7,249 nt of DNA, taken from positions 1 to 7,249 of the forward strand of contig RGUK01000066.1 of assembly GCA_010027825.1 (NCBI GenBank), written 5' to 3'. The position numbers and the translations under genes were made by a program. Each line of letters starts with the position of its first letter. Position 1 is the first letter of the stretch. The notes under the pieces were generated by a model. It made no database searches. It saw nothing but the letters and a program-made list of their open reading frames with translations, and was not told the origin of the DNA. Source of the DNA: a bacterium. Its GTDB lineage: Bacteria > Dependentiae > Babeliae > Babeliales > RVW-14. Below, one piece after another: positions 94-6,630 of the stretch.

Positions 94-615
94 ATGGCTT
101 ACAAACCACCTTCCCAAACCATTGTTGATAATGCTACGGCGTCGGTTCCCTCATCGGAAGCTGTATTTGAGGAACTAAAGCTTAAGGCTAACGCAAGCCT
201 CAATAACCTGAGCAATACGGGAACAGAGAATCAAGTTTTGAAATGGACAAGCGGCGCTCCCACATGGGGAAGTGCCCCCGCTCCTAGTCCACTAGCTCAA
301 ACTACGGTGACGCTTACTGACGCGGCAACAATTAGCGTTAACGCTGCATCAGGAAACATTTTTAGGGTGACTCTTGGCGGCAATCGCACTTTAGGAAATC
401 CAAGCGGTGCTACTGACGGTCAAATGCTACATTTTGAAATTAAGCAGGACGGAAGCGGAGGCAGAACGCTTGCCTTTGACACAAAATACCGCTTTTCAGC
501 CGATGTCGTATCGCCTACGCTTTCGACAGGCGCAAACAAACTTGATAGACTATTATTCATCTACCGAAGTGCTGACGACAAATTTGATTGTTTCCGACAC
601 CTGGGCGGTTATTAA
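94..615 (+). CDS. short phage tail fibre protein
   Basis: The product has 173 residues. Start ATG 94 has a good ribosome-binding site, AAGGA at 81-85, eight bases upstream. The N-terminal part carries the fibre-type stretch SVPSSEAVFEELKLKA (residues 17-32) and a linker of the type QVLKWTSGAPTWG (47-59), both familiar from phage tail fibres and probably used for attachment. Residues 73-173 form a C-terminal domain (DAATISVNA, IFRVTLGGNRTL, DGQM, IKQDGSGGR, FDTKYRFS, LDRLLF) that aligns without gaps for most of its length, about half identical by eye, with the end of the fibre at 4299-5522. This domain is probably the distal tip or trimerisation unit. No transmembrane segment or signal peptide is seen. 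The following gene appears to start inside this one. The tail-fibre role is inferred from sequence style and neighbours; the exact part of the virion is unknown. Confidence 0.8.
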   Translation: MAYKPPSQTIVDNATASVPSSEAVFEELKLKANASLNNLSNTGTENQVLKWTSGAPTWGSAPAPSPLAQTTVTLTDAATISVNAASGNIFRVTLGGNRTLGNPSGATDGQMLHFEIKQDGSGGRTLAFDTKYRFSADVVSPTLSTGANKLDRLLFIYRSADDKFDCFRHLGGY

Positions 616-2038
616 CGGAGATTCTGTTACCGCTCTCTCCTCAAACGTAACAGAAGGATCTTCTTCAAGTTATTCTGCGGCAACAACATCGTGGGTGGCC
701 TCTTCGTCTTTTACTCCGGGCGCAATAACCATTGACGGAATTGGTGTTTTTATAGCATCAACATCATTGGTTGGTTTAGCGTATCAAAGAGCAAATGCAA
801 ATTTTGGTACTTTTTCTGTTAGGCTTGGTCAAGCCGGATCTGCTGTAACCGGAACCACCGTTACCGTGGACGTGGTAGACCTTGCCAAACAAACCATGCA
901 ACAACAAGGAAGCGGCGGCGAATATGGCGAGATTACCGACAAAATAGGGGGATCTTGGGTTTTCTTTAAGTTTGCTTCTTCGGTCACGCTTTTGTCTGCT
1001 ACCGCTTACACTGTCGACATAATAAAAAGCAATTCTACCGGAGCGGTTTCGGTTGGCGTAAGCGCCGGAACAAACTGGCTTAGATATTTAAGAACCACAA
1101 GCACCGGAACTCCGGCGGCAACAGATAGACTGTTTATTTGTGGAGAGATAACGGGATCAGGGGCTTGGTCAACAAATACTGTAAACCACAATTCTACAGA
1201 CTTAAGCACAACTTACGGCAGGGTTGACGTTGGTGCTTACGGTCAATGGAATTGGAATAATGCCGCCTCTACAAACTACTACTTCAAAACAAGTGGCGAC
1301 ATTAGGGTTGGAACTCTTGGGCAATTACAAATTGGAACAAGCGCAAATCCAATTCCATCGACTTCAACAGCCACAATAGACTTTGTTTCTGCGTCCGGCG
1401 GTGGTTGTACTCTTCATTGTGCTAGAAAATCAACACTTACAATGAACGGGCCAACCAAAACGCATTACGGCTATTTAAGGACAAACACTATTGCCGGAGC
1501 TACAACCGCAAGCGTTTCAACGTCTACAAGCAGCAACGTAGATCCAGGCTGGAAAAACGGAGACAAAGTTGTTTTTGGCGCTTACGACACCACCTACAAT
1601 TCAAACGGGTTTTGGTCAAATTACGATATAGTGACATTAACCGCAGATTCTTCAAATTGGGCCGGGGCATCGTCAACAAATTTACAATGGACGACATCAA
1701 CAAACAATTCAGGAACTTCTCAATCGGGAAACTGGTACGCTCACGACACTTATTTGCCTTGGGTGGCAAACTTAACAAGAAATATTGTTATTAAGGGTGC
1801 GTCTGCCGCAAATACCTGCGCACTTACAATTAACACCGATCAAATCAACATGGTCGGAGTGGAAATGTATTTTTGTGACGGGCTTTACCTAAGAAACGGC
1901 GATGGGGTTACGGCCAGCCTTGTAAAAAATTGCGTTGTAAGAGAAGGGAGATCAAGAACTGTTGACGCCACCGGAGCCGGAACCGGAATAGTTTTGAGGG
2001 GCTGCCGCAACATGACGGTTGAGGATTGTGTTGCTTAA
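584..2038 (+). CDS. tailspike/fibre protein, N-terminal portion (beta-sandwich, G8-like region, start of beta-helix)
   Basis: The reading frame is open from before 407, but its residues upstream of about 584 lie inside the previous gene and look like a shadow. Start TTG 584 gives 484 residues and places TWAVINGDSV and VTEGSSSSYSAATTSWV at the N terminus, where I remember this phage family beginning. ATG 503, ATG 407 and GTG 569 are alternatives, and none has a clear ribosome-binding site; coupling to the 94-615 gene (32-base overlap) may drive initiation. Residues 5-190 look like an all-beta sandwich (GSWVFFKFASSVTL, LRTTSTGTPAATDRL). Residues 195-405 resemble a G8 region: GQLQIGTSANPIP (246-258), GWKNGDKVVF (322-331), VANLTRNIVIKG (394-405). 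From 406 a right-handed beta-helix begins (KNCVV, EDCVA) and is cut by a TAA at 2036-2038. The helix resumes in the next frame, so this is probably the front of one larger gene. It is likely a virion appendage that contacts surface glycans; no catalytic residues could be assigned. Confidence 0.78.
   Translation: MIVSDTWAVINGDSVTALSSNVTEGSSSSYSAATTSWVASSSFTPGAITIDGIGVFIASTSLVGLAYQRANANFGTFSVRLGQAGSAVTGTTVTVDVVDLAKQTMQQQGSGGEYGEITDKIGGSWVFFKFASSVTLLSATAYTVDIIKSNSTGAVSVGVSAGTNWLRYLRTTSTGTPAATDRLFICGEITGSGAWSTNTVNHNSTDLSTTYGRVDVGAYGQWNWNNAASTNYYFKTSGDIRVGTLGQLQIGTSANPIPSTSTATIDFVSASGGGCTLHCARKSTLTMNGPTKTHYGYLRTNTIAGATTASVSTSTSSNVDPGWKNGDKVVFGAYDTTYNSNGFWSNYDIVTLTADSSNWAGASSTNLQWTTSTNNSGTSQSGNWYAHDTYLPWVANLTRNIVIKGASAANTCALTINTDQINMVGVEMYFCDGLYLRNGDGVTASLVKNCVVREGRSRTVDATGAGTGIVLRGCRNMTVEDCVA
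2023..2038 (+). other. frameshift junction within one tailspike gene
   Basis: Frame 1 has a TGA at 2020-2022 and frame 2 a TAA at 2036-2038, so a single switch from frame 2 to frame 1 must fall in 2023-2038. A net -1 shift (equivalent to one missing base or two extra ones) joins the two open frames into about 1,171 residues. The interval has no X-XXY-YYZ slippery heptamer and no homopolymer longer than two, so programmed slippage is unlikely. A base-calling or assembly error, or a real inactivating mutation, fits better. Frame 3 just downstream reads NTTSNNKQT, a plausible loop, so two single-base insertions are another option. Confidence 0.65.
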
Positions 2039-4098
2039 CACCACAAGTAATAACAAACAGACGCGGCAACTTAGTAAAAAATTGTATTTCTATTGCGAAC
2101 AATTTATCAAACTTTAACAGCATGGGCAATGCAACCTCAAATGGCACTGAAGATTGGAATGTTTTGTTTGAAAACTGCATTGCAAACAGCAATGCCCTTG
2201 GCTTTTATGTATCTAAGTTGGGTGGAAATTCTTTTTTGGGTGGCGATGACACTGTTGTCCTCAAGGGTTGTAGCTTTGGCATATCTTCCGGCACAAGCAG
2301 AGTTGTTGGATCGCAGGTAAATGACGCCAGTTGGAATAACTCGCAATCTGGGGATGGAAGCAGAAAGTTAATAATAGAAACCTGTACGTTTTATAGTCAA
2401 GAGATAGGCGTTTTGTGGGAAAATATTGAGTTTAAGGATTGTTCTTTTATAAAAAGAAACCCTGACATGACCTACACTTCTTGCGTTTCAAACAGCGTCG
2501 CAACCAATGGAGGCTGTGTTTACCCTGTTGTTTTTAATAATTGTACTTTTAATACTACAGCTAGTGGCGGCGCACAAAGAATATTCTTCCTAAGCAACCC
2601 GTGTTATTGGGTTGTAAATGGTGGTAGCACAAACACCAATCCTTCCAGTGCGGCCCCCTTATATTTTGGCAATCACAATATAAAATTGGTTTTTAACAAT
2701 TTTTCTTGCTCAAGTTGGGGGAATGCTTTTCCAACAACGGCAACCATGGTTACAGCTTCAAACCCATTAATATATTATTCGTCATCTTTATCTTTTCAAA
2801 GATTTAATCAGGTAGAAGGCGATCACAGATATTATACCCATGGTTATATGTCGTTTTCTGACTCATCGGTGGTCGATTCGTCCCCAAGATCTCTCAAAGT
2901 CTATTCAAATCTTCCGGGGCCTGGCGCAAAATTTAATCCGCTTCGCATACCAGTAAAGAAAAACCAATCAGTCACAATTTCTGCAAAAGTAAAAATGAGC
3001 GAGCCTGGGGCTACGGGTTCCAATGCATTTAACGGAAGGATTCCAAGTCTGTTTATCAAGGCAAACAGGGCGCTTGGTTCTAGCTTTAATTCTGATGTTG
3101 AAACTTTCGCAAGCGCAACCGCTATTAACGGGGACGTATCTACTTCTGGGTGGACTCCGGCAAGTCTTGGCTCTACAAATTTGCGACTATGGCTTGTGGC
3201 AGACGCAGCAAACATCACCTACAACTCAACAACAAAAACTATTAGTCAGTGGAACGACTTGTCCGGCAACAACAATCACTTAACGCAATCAACCGACACA
3301 AAAAAACCAATCTTTACGATTGACTCAAATCACAATGGTTTTTCTGCCGTGAGCTTAACCAGGGAAGTTGATCAACGGCTTGTTTCTTCTGGAAACATTT
3401 TGTCCGGCAACACATCAAACGTAACAATTTTTATGGTGGCTGCTTTTAAGTATGGGTTAGATCAAACAAATGCATCAACCTACGGACAATTCTATTCGTT
3501 TAATGGCGCTTCTTCTCGAATGTCTGGATGGGCGGCGGCGCAATACTCTGGCAACCCGTCAATGCTTGTTAGCCATGTACTTGACACTGACACCGCAACA
3601 ACAAATACAGAAGCGCCAGACTATCATGCGGTTCCGGGCATGATTCAACTATTTTCGTTACAAAATAACAATGGGTCAAGCTATCGAAGGGGATACATTA
3701 ACGGGGTTAGATATAACAGCCAGTTAAATTCCGACACTGTAGCGACCGTAAATATAACACCAACAAACTTTTGCCTTGGTGTGGGAAAAGAATCAACTTA
3801 CTCACAATCAGCAACCATGGTTAACCATTCTGCTTCGGTTGATATTATGGAGTTTATTGTTGTGGACAAAGTGATGACCGCAACCGAAACCGCAGACATG
3901 AATAAATACCTTGCAAACAAGTATTATGTGTATTTGCGAGGAGAAAAAAACTCAACGACAAGTTGGAACACTTTAAGCTGGACAACTCCATCGGTTACTG
4001 ACGACACGGTAATCGAAGCAAGCATAAATATCAGGGCCGCAGTAAACAGAAGTCAAAGCCTTGGCTTTATAAACATTGATTCAATTACGGTGACATAA
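2026..4098 (+). CDS. tailspike/fibre protein, C-terminal portion (beta-helix, split carbohydrate-binding-like sandwich, LamG-type lectin)
   Basis: The 690-residue frame can only begin at TTG 2026, which has no usable ribosome-binding site (GAGGA abuts the codon), or at ATG 2122. It is better read as the continuation of the 584-2038 frame. Residues 15 to about 240 continue the beta-helix with repeated turns KNCIS, ENCIA, KGCSF, ETCTF, KDCSF and NNCTF. Residues 262-371 are the first half of a carbohydrate-binding-like beta-sandwich (RSLKVYS, SVTISAKVKMS, RIPSLFIKANRALG). Residues 375-638 are a LamG/concanavalin-like lectin fold (GWTPAS, LRLWLVADAANI, ISQWNDLSGNNNHLTQ, YINGVRYNS, IMEFIVVDKVMT). 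Residues 641-690 (WNTLSWTTPSVTDDTVIEA, GFINIDSITV) look like the missing second half of the sandwich. Asn is very frequent (75 of 690). The protein probably binds host-surface polysaccharide; whether it also cleaves it cannot be told. The next small gene begins two bases after the stop. Confidence 0.78.
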   Translation: MCCLTPQVITNRRGNLVKNCISIANNLSNFNSMGNATSNGTEDWNVLFENCIANSNALGFYVSKLGGNSFLGGDDTVVLKGCSFGISSGTSRVVGSQVNDASWNNSQSGDGSRKLIIETCTFYSQEIGVLWENIEFKDCSFIKRNPDMTYTSCVSNSVATNGGCVYPVVFNNCTFNTTASGGAQRIFFLSNPCYWVVNGGSTNTNPSSAAPLYFGNHNIKLVFNNFSCSSWGNAFPTTATMVTASNPLIYYSSSLSFQRFNQVEGDHRYYTHGYMSFSDSSVVDSSPRSLKVYSNLPGPGAKFNPLRIPVKKNQSVTISAKVKMSEPGATGSNAFNGRIPSLFIKANRALGSSFNSDVETFASATAINGDVSTSGWTPASLGSTNLRLWLVADAANITYNSTTKTISQWNDLSGNNNHLTQSTDTKKPIFTIDSNHNGFSAVSLTREVDQRLVSSGNILSGNTSNVTIFMVAAFKYGLDQTNASTYGQFYSFNGASSRMSGWAAAQYSGNPSMLVSHVLDTDTATTNTEAPDYHAVPGMIQLFSLQNNNGSSYRRGYINGVRYNSQLNSDTVATVNITPTNFCLGVGKESTYSQSATMVNHSASVDIMEFIVVDKVMTATETADMNKYLANKYYVYLRGEKNSTTSWNTLSWTTPSVTDDTVIEASINIRAAVNRSQSLGFINIDSITVT

Positions 4099-4099
4099 T

Positions 4100-4276
4100 A
4101 TGGCCGCAACCAACGAAACAAAAGACTATACAGTTTTTATCGACGGTCAGCCATGTACTGATCTGCAAAACACTAACAACTCAACGCCACAAGATTGTTT
4201 CTTGGACGGGCAGCCGTTTTTAACCCTGTTCCCGGATGTCACAACCAACACAACTAGATACTTCTTTGGGTTTTAG
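4100..4276 (+). CDS. 58-residue phage protein with two DGQP motifs
   Basis: ATG 4100 opens a 58-residue frame beginning MAATNETKDYTVFIDGQP and ending RYFFGF before TAG 4274-4276. The start follows the previous stop (4096-4098) after one base, and the next gene's ribosome-binding site lies 14 bases beyond its stop, so it fits an operon of coupled genes. It holds two imperfect copies of a short unit, FIDGQP (residues 13-18) and FLDGQP (34-39), about 21 residues apart. Small proteins of this D-G-[QL]-P style occur beside tail and fibre genes in other phages, from memory; their function is unknown. A minor structural component or fibre-assembly helper is possible. There is no signal peptide or membrane segment. 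No strong ribosome-binding site is visible, so translation probably depends on coupling. Confidence 0.62.
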   Translation: MAATNETKDYTVFIDGQPCTDLQNTNNSTPQDCFLDGQPFLTLFPDVTTNTTRYFFGF

Positions 4277-4298: not shown

Positions 4299-5522
4299 AT
4301 GCTAACCAAAGTTACAAATGAAATGTTAATTGATTTAGCTGTTACTGAATCAAAAATCTCTCCCGGATCTGTGACTAGCTCAAAAATCGCAGATTCGTCG
4401 GTTACCGCAGCCAAGCTTCAAAATTCAAGCATTACAGCCGACAAAATAGCCGACGGCACAATTACGTTTGCAAAACTAGCCTCGGGCGCTTTTTCTTCTG
4501 TCACAGTTTCGGACGGATCTATCACCTCAGCAAAACTTGCCGACAATGCTGTGATTCAATCAAAGCTGCCTGACGGAGTCATTTCGCAGTTTAAAATCTC
4601 GGACGGCGCTATTGTGAGTTCAAAGATATTGGACGGTTCGGTAACGACGCCAAAGATTGCTGATGCGGCGGTGACTACCGCAAAAATCTCCGACGCTGGG
4701 ATTACAACCGCAAAAATTGCCGACGGCTCTGTGATCACAGCAAAGCTTTCGAACGGTTCCGTCACTACCGCAAAGCTTGATGATCTGTCGGTCACCTCTA
4801 TAAAGCTTGCCTCTTTAAGCGTTACAACCGCAAAGATAGTCGACCTATCGGTAACGACACAAAAAATAGCCGCAGGGGCAATCGTAAATAGCCTAATCAG
4901 CAACGGGGCGGTCACAGAAGAAAAAATATCTGCTAACTCAATTAGCTCTTCAAAAATTATAAACTCATCAATTTTAAACAATCACATAAGCGCTTCGGCA
5001 GACATCGAAAGGTCAAAGATTGCATCTGGCTTATTTGATCATGTTTTAATTAACAATGCGTCAGGGATAATATCAAGCGAAGCACAGCTTGCAAAATCTC
5101 GAGGGGGCTGTGGCGCAGACATGTCCTCTGTCACCTTTCCTTCCTCTGGAACCATTGCAACAACCAGCGGGACGGAGACACTAAGCAACAAGTCTATTAC
5201 AAAGAGAATAGCGTCTTTAGTTGATGCGGCATCAATTTCAATAGACGCTTCCTTGGCAGATATTTTTAGGGTTACCATTGCGGGAGACAGAACGCTTTCA
5301 AACCCAACAAACCTTGTTGATGGACAAATGATAGCTATTCATATCAAGCAGGACTCTCTTGGGGGAAGGCTCATTTCTTTCGACACCATGTATAGATTTT
5401 CTACCGATCTTCCAAAACCCAACTTAAGCTTTGATCCAGATCTCATGGACAGGCTTTTATTCGAGTATGACGCATCAGCAAACAAACTTGATCTTGTTGC
5501 GATAAATAGGGGCTATTTATAA
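4299..5522 (+). CDS. tail fibre protein with 22 decapeptide repeats and a C-terminal tip domain
   Basis: The product has 407 residues, with start ATG 4299 preceded by GAGG at 4291-4294. Residues 11-230 are 22 consecutive ten-residue repeats with consensus x-D-G-S-V-T-T-A-K-[IL] and no insertion or deletion. Such repeats build elongated trimeric beta-structured shafts in fibres. Residues 231-300 are a connector carrying motifs common in phage fibres: ADIERSKIASG (234-244), LAKSRGGCG (264-272) and FPSSGTIATTSGTETLSNKSI-type sequence (280-300). Residues 306-407 are a diverged copy of the C-terminal domain of the 94-615 protein (DIFRVTIAGDRTL, DGQM, IKQDSLGGR, MDRLLFEY), probably the distal or trimerisation tip. 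Three repeats have lost the conserved Lys (residues 61-70, 191-200 and 221-230). A weak hairpin and a 131-base non-coding stretch follow, so this is probably the last gene of the fibre operon. Confidence 0.85.
   Translation: MLTKVTNEMLIDLAVTESKISPGSVTSSKIADSSVTAAKLQNSSITADKIADGTITFAKLASGAFSSVTVSDGSITSAKLADNAVIQSKLPDGVISQFKISDGAIVSSKILDGSVTTPKIADAAVTTAKISDAGITTAKIADGSVITAKLSNGSVTTAKLDDLSVTSIKLASLSVTTAKIVDLSVTTQKIAAGAIVNSLISNGAVTEEKISANSISSSKIINSSILNNHISASADIERSKIASGLFDHVLINNASGIISSEAQLAKSRGGCGADMSSVTFPSSGTIATTSGTETLSNKSITKRIASLVDAASISIDASLADIFRVTIAGDRTLSNPTNLVDGQMIAIHIKQDSLGGRLISFDTMYRFSTDLPKPNLSFDPDLMDRLLFEYDASANKLDLVAINRGYL
4329..4988 (+). repeat. 22 tandem 30-base units coding decapeptide repeats
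   Basis: The 30-base period holds exactly for 660 bases and encodes x-D-G-S-V-T-T-A-K-[IL]. At the DNA level the units have diverged, with many synonymous changes (ACT ACC GCA AAA, ACA ACC GCA AAA, ACT ACC GCA AAG), so this is an old protein-level repeat kept by selection and not a fresh slippage array. The repeat also produces a long open frame on the opposite strand (4556-4981), which is a shadow. Confidence 0.9.
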
Positions 5523-5653: not shown

Positions 5654-5729
5654 TGAGGCGTAGCTTAATTGGTAAAGCCCCGAGCTGTTAACTCGGAATA
5701 TAAAGGTTCGAGACCTTTCGCCTCAGCCA
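5654..5729 (+). tRNA. trnN: tRNA-Asn (anticodon GTT) with encoded CCA
   Basis: A complete cloverleaf can be drawn. The acceptor stem pairs TGAGGCG (5654-5660) with CGCCTCA (5719-5725), seven perfect pairs. The D stem is GCTT/AAGC (5663-5666 with 5675-5678), with GG in the loop. The anticodon stem CCGAG/CTCGG (5680-5684 with 5692-5696) encloses the loop CTGTTAA, giving anticodon GTT at 5687-5689. The variable loop has five bases, and the T stem AAAGG/CCTTT (5702-5706 with 5714-5718) encloses TTCGAGA. The discriminator is G5726, usual for tRNA-Asn, and CCA is encoded at 5727-5729. It would read AAC and AAT. The neighbouring spike protein is unusually rich in Asn, which suggests a supplementary role in late gene expression. 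Confidence 0.96.
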
Positions 5730-5735
5730 AAAAAA

Positions 5736-6275
5736 ATGATAAGCCTACCGTCGATAAAGGTTGTTGTTTTAAATGAACACCTAACAGACTTTCAAAAGCC
5801 TGGAACTACCGAAGCATACCTTCTGGCCGCGGATTGCAGACCCGGCTCAATTATTAAATTTACGGTTTATTTAAGCGGCGGGGCTGTGTGGTCTGGGCTT
5901 CCGATAGAGGCTATTTTTTGCGATAGATTTTCTTGCGTTGATATATCAAAAAAAACAACGACAGATGTGCTTCAACCGTTTTCCTGTCTTGAGGGCCCAG
6001 TATCGATTTTAACCTACGACTTAATTAAACACTCTAAAGTTCAAACTAAAATTGGCCCAGGGCATTATTTATTTACTATAAATTATGAAGGGTGCGGCCT
6101 TTCCGAAGATCCAGAGCAACACAAAACCCACAACATTATCATTCTTAGCACCGGGCAATTATGTGCGCTTCCAAACAACTTTATTAAAATTGTAGATAAT
6201 TGGTTTTCTGATAACAGTGACAATGACCTAACGCACTACAAAAGAACAAAAAAATTCTTTTTTCCGGGCGGTTAA
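5736..6275 (+). CDS. conserved phage protein of unknown function
   Basis: The product has 179 residues. ATG 5736 is the only early ATG in the frame and lies six A residues after the tRNA CCA, with no ribosome-binding site, so translation may be leaderless-like after tRNA processing or inefficient. The sequence has the style of an uncharacterised family I remember from aquatic podovirus genomes: PGSIIKFTVYLSGGAVWSGLPIEAIFC around residues 36-62 (quoted in part: GAVWSGLP at 49-56), then HYLFTINYEG (110-119), SEDPEQHKTHNIIIL (123-137) and ALPNNFI (144-150). The pattern suggests a compact mixed alpha/beta or beta-rich soluble protein. There is no membrane segment or signal peptide. No catalytic motif could be assigned. 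Its place directly before Bbp19-like and scaffold genes suggests a packaging or head-assembly context, but that is only by association. The end of the gene is A/T-rich and includes a KRTKKFFFPGG tail. Confidence 0.8.
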   Translation: MISLPSIKVVVLNEHLTDFQKPGTTEAYLLAADCRPGSIIKFTVYLSGGAVWSGLPIEAIFCDRFSCVDISKKTTTDVLQPFSCLEGPVSILTYDLIKHSKVQTKIGPGHYLFTINYEGCGLSEDPEQHKTHNIIILSTGQLCALPNNFIKIVDNWFSDNSDNDLTHYKRTKKFFFPGG

Positions 6276-6291
6276 ATGATAATCTATTGCT

Positions 6292-6630
6292 ATGCAGGAA
6301 ATGTTAGATCCGCTTGATTTAAGCGGACAAAAAAAGCACAGAGAAAATTTAAAAAAGTCCTCGACGATTAAGAAAAAAATAGAGGCAGAAGATCTTAAGT
6401 GGGTGATGGGCAACAAGCGCGGAAGACGCTTTGCGTGGAGACTTTTGGACAGAGCTGGCATATACAGAACTTCGTTCACTGGAAACTCTACAACTTTTTT
6501 TAACGAAGGGATGCGAAATATAGGGCTCATGTTGGTAGCCGATATTCACGAAGCTTGTCCAGAGGCTTACGCCCTTATGATAAAGGAAAATAGAAATGAC
6601 ACAGACATTGATGACGCAAGCCGCAAGTAA
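6292..6630 (+). CDS. Bbp19-like phage protein
   Basis: The product has 112 residues. Residues 36-62 (KWVMGNKRGRRFAWRLLDRAGIYRTSF, in part RGRRFAWRLLDRAG) followed by FFNEGMRNIGLMLVADI (69-85) and CPEAYALM (89-96) match the pattern I remember for the Bbp19 family named after Bordetella phage BPP-1: a short helical protein that often sits next to scaffold and capsid genes in podoviruses. The N terminus (residues 1-35) is Lys-rich and probably helical. ATG 6292 and the in-frame ATG 6301 are both possible starts; neither has a well-spaced ribosome-binding site. The gene begins 16 bases after the previous stop, and its last 35 bases overlap the next gene, indicating a co-transcribed and probably coupled unit. 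The molecular role is not established; a structural or assembly function is inferred from position. Confidence 0.82.
   Translation: MQEMLDPLDLSGQKKHRENLKKSSTIKKKIEAEDLKWVMGNKRGRRFAWRLLDRAGIYRTSFTGNSTTFFNEGMRNIGLMLVADIHEACPEAYALMIKENRNDTDIDDASRK

Follow-up and report, generated by a model that had tools for sequence, protein, structure and literature searches.

The 7,249-nucleotide contig RGUK01000066.1, analysed over its whole length and referred to here as the window, carries structural genes of a tailed phage, as judged from its open reading frames (ORFs) and library matches. The ORF at 2026-4098 raises the question whether a lectin-like domain at the end of a phage spike follows a carbohydrate-binding module (CBM)-like beta-sandwich or lies inside it. 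A first-pass annotation made from the sequence alone had put forward the latter, with a sandwich begun at residues 262-371 and completed only at 641-690. All motifs on which this proposal drew are present, namely SVTISAKVKMS (residues 315-325), SLFIKANRALG (341-351), ETFASATA (359-366), LRLWLVADA (386-394), ISQWNDLSGNNNH (406-418), IMEFIVVDKVMT (607-618), WNTLSWTTPSVTDD (647-660) and GFINIDSITV (680-689). Our analysis confirms that residues 254-370 and 641-690 are the halves of one CBM-like beta-sandwich and that residues 376-637 form a separate domain between neighbouring strands of it.

The evidence comes from an empty-site profile (alignment A7) built from 39 non-redundant modules that lack the insert, none of them belonging to the window family. 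This profile matches the window ORF (E 7.2e-20) in two pieces, positions 2-113 falling on residues 254-370 and positions 108-151 on residues 641-690. In a profile comparison with hhalign, the first half of the window family fell on empty-module columns 3-108 (probability 98.7, E 2.1e-16) and the ending on columns 114-153 (probability 97.1, E 5.5e-11). The two-piece match is not a chance result, because all nine nested proteins show two pieces and the best of 200 shuffled sequences reached E 0.13 with the full profile (0.071 with a first-half profile, 0.49 with an ending profile). In eight of the nine the profile breaks at positions 98-113/105-111; in P0010 the first piece ends at position 73. 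The second piece scores weakly in P0007 (iE 0.0013), P0009 (0.0076), P0005 (0.037) and P0010 (0.82), P0009 has a third piece at chance level, and a profile of the ending alone left P0005 unmatched at E 10 and gave E 0.12 for P0010. When the window was aligned with its relatives P0004-P0010, all three parts (first sandwich half, LamG-like domain, ending) were found in 7/7 relatives. The sandwich identity of the first half stands, its start having to be moved upstream to about residue 254, and the ending that the first-pass annotation had described for phage proteins is borne out as W-x-x-L ... T-D-D ... G-W-[IV]-N-V-D-D.

Homologues without the insert, for which the annotation had suggested a search, were indeed found, and the three parts do not always occur together. 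The motif G-W-[IV]-N-V-D-D-W yielded 25 stretches, several of them copies of one another; in 24 of these the first half passes from its last strands directly into the ending, the remaining one (L020) being too short to judge. In four of the 24 (L013, L018, L015 and L019) other sequence interrupts the module at an earlier point, and two (L029 and L030) contain the module without its beginning. Because the motif had selected for the ending, the search was repeated with the first half only, using a pattern (A6) from 14 empty modules plus L009. It matched 39 stretches, 34 of which were confirmed, with at most 6 residues between the halves in 33 of the 34 and 85 in L098; since this search reaches neither the window family nor L009 and near-copies are among the 34, the proportion is not to be taken as a frequency. 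With the whole empty module as query, an ORF without a large insert at the window's loop was present in 35/35 loci, the spacing between the halves being at most 6 residues in 33 loci and 11 in L062 and L065. Inserts in an earlier loop were seen in L062, L063 and L065, L064 proved to be the cut-short end of a module of the L063 type, and a second ORF of L059 has an insert elsewhere. Together, the first-half and whole-module lists comprise 51 contigs. Scans of viral contigs with the first-half and whole profiles picked up L009 besides a single window-family contig.

The fold of an empty module is predicted confidently (pLDDT 95) and resembles CBM22, CBM4 and CBM16 domains as well as the C-terminal domains of tailspikes. 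Its strand order is the same as in the model of residues 250-690 of the window ORF, and the predicted sandwich of the latter is a jelly roll of the CBM4/9, CBM22 and CBM16 type. Since the empty module is homologous and its strands follow the same order, we infer that residues 641-690 pack on residues 262-371. The curated cut-off of CBM_4_9 (PF02018) was not reached: 3 of the 39 empty modules matched at E <=0.1 (best 0.012), L014 scored 13.9 bits against a cut-off of 25.9 and the window ORF gave no match. One of the 39 empty-module rows matches Laminin_G_3 at E 3e-4.

The inserted part had been described as a self-contained LamG/concanavalin-like domain of 264 residues. The domain holds, and its limits are better set at about residues 376-637 (window 3151-3936), because tblastn matches start at 376 and those spanning the insert end at 637. 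With a query from residue 373, nine of twelve phage records, from six phages by name, start at W376 (S-CBS4, KBS-S-2A and REQ2 twice each), and the two that span the insert end at 637. When a query from residue 376 was used in BLAST, five of ten alignments began at its first residue (Barba26A gp135, KBS-S-2A, S-CBS4, REQ2 and P0011), P0011 being a protein of 872 residues that consists of four LamG domains in tandem, like the one in the window. The insert matches phrog_10356 (E 6e-15); a Pfam scan of it returned no family except a sub-threshold DUF4304, and at the curated cut-off Laminin_G_3 (PF13385) matched neither the ORF nor the insert. As the insert is predicted to adopt a LamG-like jelly roll, it is LamG-like by fold and stands outside PF13385. 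In structural comparison it resembles the glycan-binding domain 4 of AbnA and the PilC lectin. A protein of Pseudanabaena phage Pam2 (ON014754.1, 58024-58305), deposited as 'botulinum neurotoxin type A', matches the insert with 35% identity over 102 residues; this label was probably taken from the shared lectin-like fold.

The modular acquisition envisaged by the first-pass annotation is borne out by three different contents at one loop and by inserts in two other loops. In L009 the window's loop is filled by another lectin (Laminin_G_3, 71.6 bits at a cut-off of 27.6), which neither BLAST nor phmmer matches to the window insert at 1e-3. In L098 the loop takes up 85 residues, with a weak match to a structural protein (phrog_697, E 0.0014). 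A second, earlier loop, after a strand ending in -MTP or -LTP, has received 222 residues in L063 and 69 in L062 (phrog_20658 'head decoration', E 2e-7), and a third, between IRKSS and YNG segments, 199 residues in the second ORF (from 4567) of L059 (phrog_5939 'tail protein', E 3e-15). The six inserts are all different. Insertions in these two other loops occur in the L059 ORF from 4567, the L063 ORF from 416, and in L062, L013, L018 and L065. A tree was calculated from the sandwich alone, inserts left out, for 51 rows, 38 of them empty; it is unrooted, its bootstrap is not fully settled, and L059 and L031 sit on long branches. The window family is recovered as a single clade (100/100). L009 falls together with L063 and two empty modules (87/68, not starred), and starred branches place one empty module, L101, between L009 and the window family. 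The six states require six changes on this tree; for 'empty' versus the rest, at least three are forced by the starred branches taken by themselves. The odds are about even that the C-terminal CBM-like sandwich serves generally as a display scaffold and that at least three of its loops took up whole foreign domains at different times, so that phages could gain, lose or exchange side-mounted binding domains with spike fold and ends unchanged.

In the window the spike gene itself is split into two frames by a stop at 2036-2038, near which the frame is broken. The intact relative P0004 has 1192 residues; ORF 2026-4098 aligns to its residues 507-1192, with 96% identity over ORF residues 230-690, and homology of the upstream frame to intact relatives begins at about its residue 63. 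ORF 2026-4098 is therefore, judged by these alignments, the 3' part of a spike gene and no complete product; the window's own product is represented in the database by a protein of 658 residues (P0003). Lengths of 1150-1192 residues are found in six of the seven relatives; P0006, with 564, looks like a fragment. Natural inactivation, frameshifting and assembly error cannot be told apart from this sequence as the origin of the break. A sharply bounded variable block relative to P0004 (its residues 521-760, window ~2077-2800) is about 67% identical (160/240) between flanks of about 98-99%, and the break lies near its left edge. The spike body is rung-rich and probably beta-helical: rung-like repeats are visible by eye (alignment A1), and weak G8 matches occur in two of eight rows (best E 0.035).

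We consider it likely that the C-terminal tip of this spike is a conserved CBM-like jelly roll with a complete LamG/concanavalin-like cassette in one of its loops, the latter serving as a side-displayed, replaceable adhesion module for host-surface glycans. The rung-rich body would end in the jelly roll; the cassette would have entered a loop between neighbouring strands, leaving the jelly roll split in sequence and whole in space. The jelly roll would cap, and help to assemble, the end of a trimeric spike and may itself touch glycan, while its surface loop would present the LamG domain sideways. What sequence comparison shows is a pair of sandwich halves, a foreign cassette, and sites that are empty or hold other domains; the models predict both folds and the strand order; and we infer a trimer, sugar binding and a role in host choice, the function as trimer cap from what is known of the family. 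Were the architecture an artefact of metagenome assembly, the frame break and the fall in identity to P0004 beside it would be its traces; the same three parts recur in 7/7 close relatives from other contigs and the break lies more than 700 bases upstream of the sandwich, with the nested lectin well downstream, which makes this account hardly credible. It is very improbable, too, that the parts are sequential domains, residues 641-690 forming an independent C-terminal piece or packing with the LamG domain and the likeness to empty modules being incidental. Some LamG-led structural alignments do extend to model residue 419-420, but the halves are contiguous in the 39 non-redundant relatives, the empty-site profile matches both halves and breaks at one and the same position, and inserts of different kinds occupy the same site.

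A weightier, though still unlikely, alternative accepts the nesting and sees in the cassette a structural spacer, folding aid or virion decoration without host-glycan binding. Several observations weigh in its favour. Similar LamG-like domains occur in phage proteins whose labels say no more than 'virion structural' or 'hypothetical'. The C-terminal domain of the K2-2 tailspike works in trimer assembly, one change nearly abolishing the trimer (PMC10936425), and the CBM and lectin (LEC) domains of KP32gp38 showed no capsule binding when isolated, which warns against certainty (PMC13082707). On the other side, the insert has the fold of two glycan binders, AbnA domain 4 and the PilC lectin, the latter a lectin by experiment (PMC9934059), receptor contact is expected at a spike tip, and phage Douge has six glycan-binding surface domains (PMC13033339). 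The stretch of Douge gp20 (8zdp) that matches the sandwich, residues 181-318, may or may not be among these six. K2-2 assembly and Douge glycan binding make both a trimer-cap and a glycan role of the sandwich possible. The 'two sugar-binding surfaces' that had been proposed are one possibility, the sandwich resembling glycan-binding CBMs but also the K2-2 trimer-assembly domain and non-lectin enzymes, cyclases among them. Glycan binding by sandwich or insert, and any part of the insert in receptor specificity, are putative; on balance the cap probably displays the insert as an additional glycan-binding domain.

Shuffling of spike domains is well documented (PMC10684548), and DepoCatalog describes tandem 'double C-domain' ends as well as insertion domains in beta-helices (PMC13385381). 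Klebsiella phage KP32 gp38 (DepoCatalog Class 1F) likewise ends in CBM-like and lectin-like domains; these are consecutive, whereas in the window the lectin lies inside a sandwich loop (PMC13082707, PMC13385381). Assignment to Class 1F, with two consecutive C-terminal domains after a beta-helix, was considered and rejected: the lectin interrupts the sandwich, and the halves are contiguous in relatives. The insertion domains of KP34gp57 and LKA1gp49 (Class 2) are also placed within another spike domain (PMC13082707, PMC13385381), but that domain is the beta-helix and not the C-terminal sandwich, where the window insert lies between two strands (PMC13385381). The C-terminal domains of K2-2 (8iq9) and CBA120 TSP4 (5w6h) align over residues 435-574 and 897-1034, and these 140 and 138 residues are too few to include a cassette of the window's size. 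The comparable domain of the cyanopodophage Pan3 tailspike (9vyh) accounts for most of that chain and has no sandwich of this kind around it. The available account of the mycobacteriophage Douge central fibre gp20 mentions no nested lectin for its sandwich (PMC13033339). PilC of Streptococcus sanguinis likewise has a glycan-binding ConA-like lectin module added to another surface structure (PMC9934059); unlike the window protein, it is a pilus subunit with the module at the C terminus and no split sandwich. End-to-end spike shuffling, tandem CBM-lectin ends and beta-helix insertions are known; a limited search of open-licence literature found no lectin nested in a spike C-terminal sandwich and no inserts in several loops of that sandwich.

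The features of the window are collected in the table below. The C-terminal parts of the proteins encoded at 94-615 and 4299-5522, on either side of the spike gene, look paralogous, both matching phrog_19976. On the contig of a window relative (L001), terminase-like, portal-like and capsid-like ORFs lie 3' of the spike gene (by reading only), in agreement with a tailed phage.

Features of the window (positions on the 7,249-nucleotide stretch)
Feature	Position	Strand	Basis or remark
Small tail-associated protein	94-615		
Spike gene, 5' part, open frame: N-terminal region and first part of rung-rich, probably beta-helical body	407-2038	+	Matches P0004 residues 15-495 (481 residues, 99.4% identical)
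Spike gene, 3' part, open frame, 690 residues: rest of rung-rich body, then C-terminal sandwich with nested lectin	2026-4098	+	
CBM-like beta-sandwich, first half (residues 254-370; contains FQRFNQVEGDHR and SPRSLKV)	2785-3135	+	Empty-site profile and hhalign; strands in model
Linker into insert (residues 371-375)	3136-3150	+	Between end of first-half match and first residue common to LamG proteins elsewhere
Inserted LamG/concanavalin-like cassette (residues 376-637)	3151-3936	+	
Linker out of insert (residues 638-640)	3937-3945	+	Between matched blocks
CBM-like beta-sandwich, second half (residues 641-690), last three strands, protein end	3946-4095	+	Empty-site profile and hhalign
58-residue ORF	4100-4276		
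Tail-fibre-like protein	4299-5522		phrog_892, E 7e-43
tRNA-Asn	5654-5729		Among structural genes
ORF with phrog_3704 match	5736-6275		E 2e-20; 'ferredoxin' is a library label only
Bbp19-like protein	6292-6630		PF25181
ORF with phrog_458 'protease' match	6596 onward		

Spikes read as linear strings of domains, or annotated with Pfam only, will not reveal tips of this kind. The nested lectin, at a site that is elsewhere empty or otherwise filled, provides an example of how a putative binding domain can be added with the ends and the fold of the cap intact. A testable prediction follows: natural empty and filled versions would have one cap fold in common but not the same glycan binding. Inserts in the C-terminal sandwich may thus be one way in which phages add new binding parts to their spikes.
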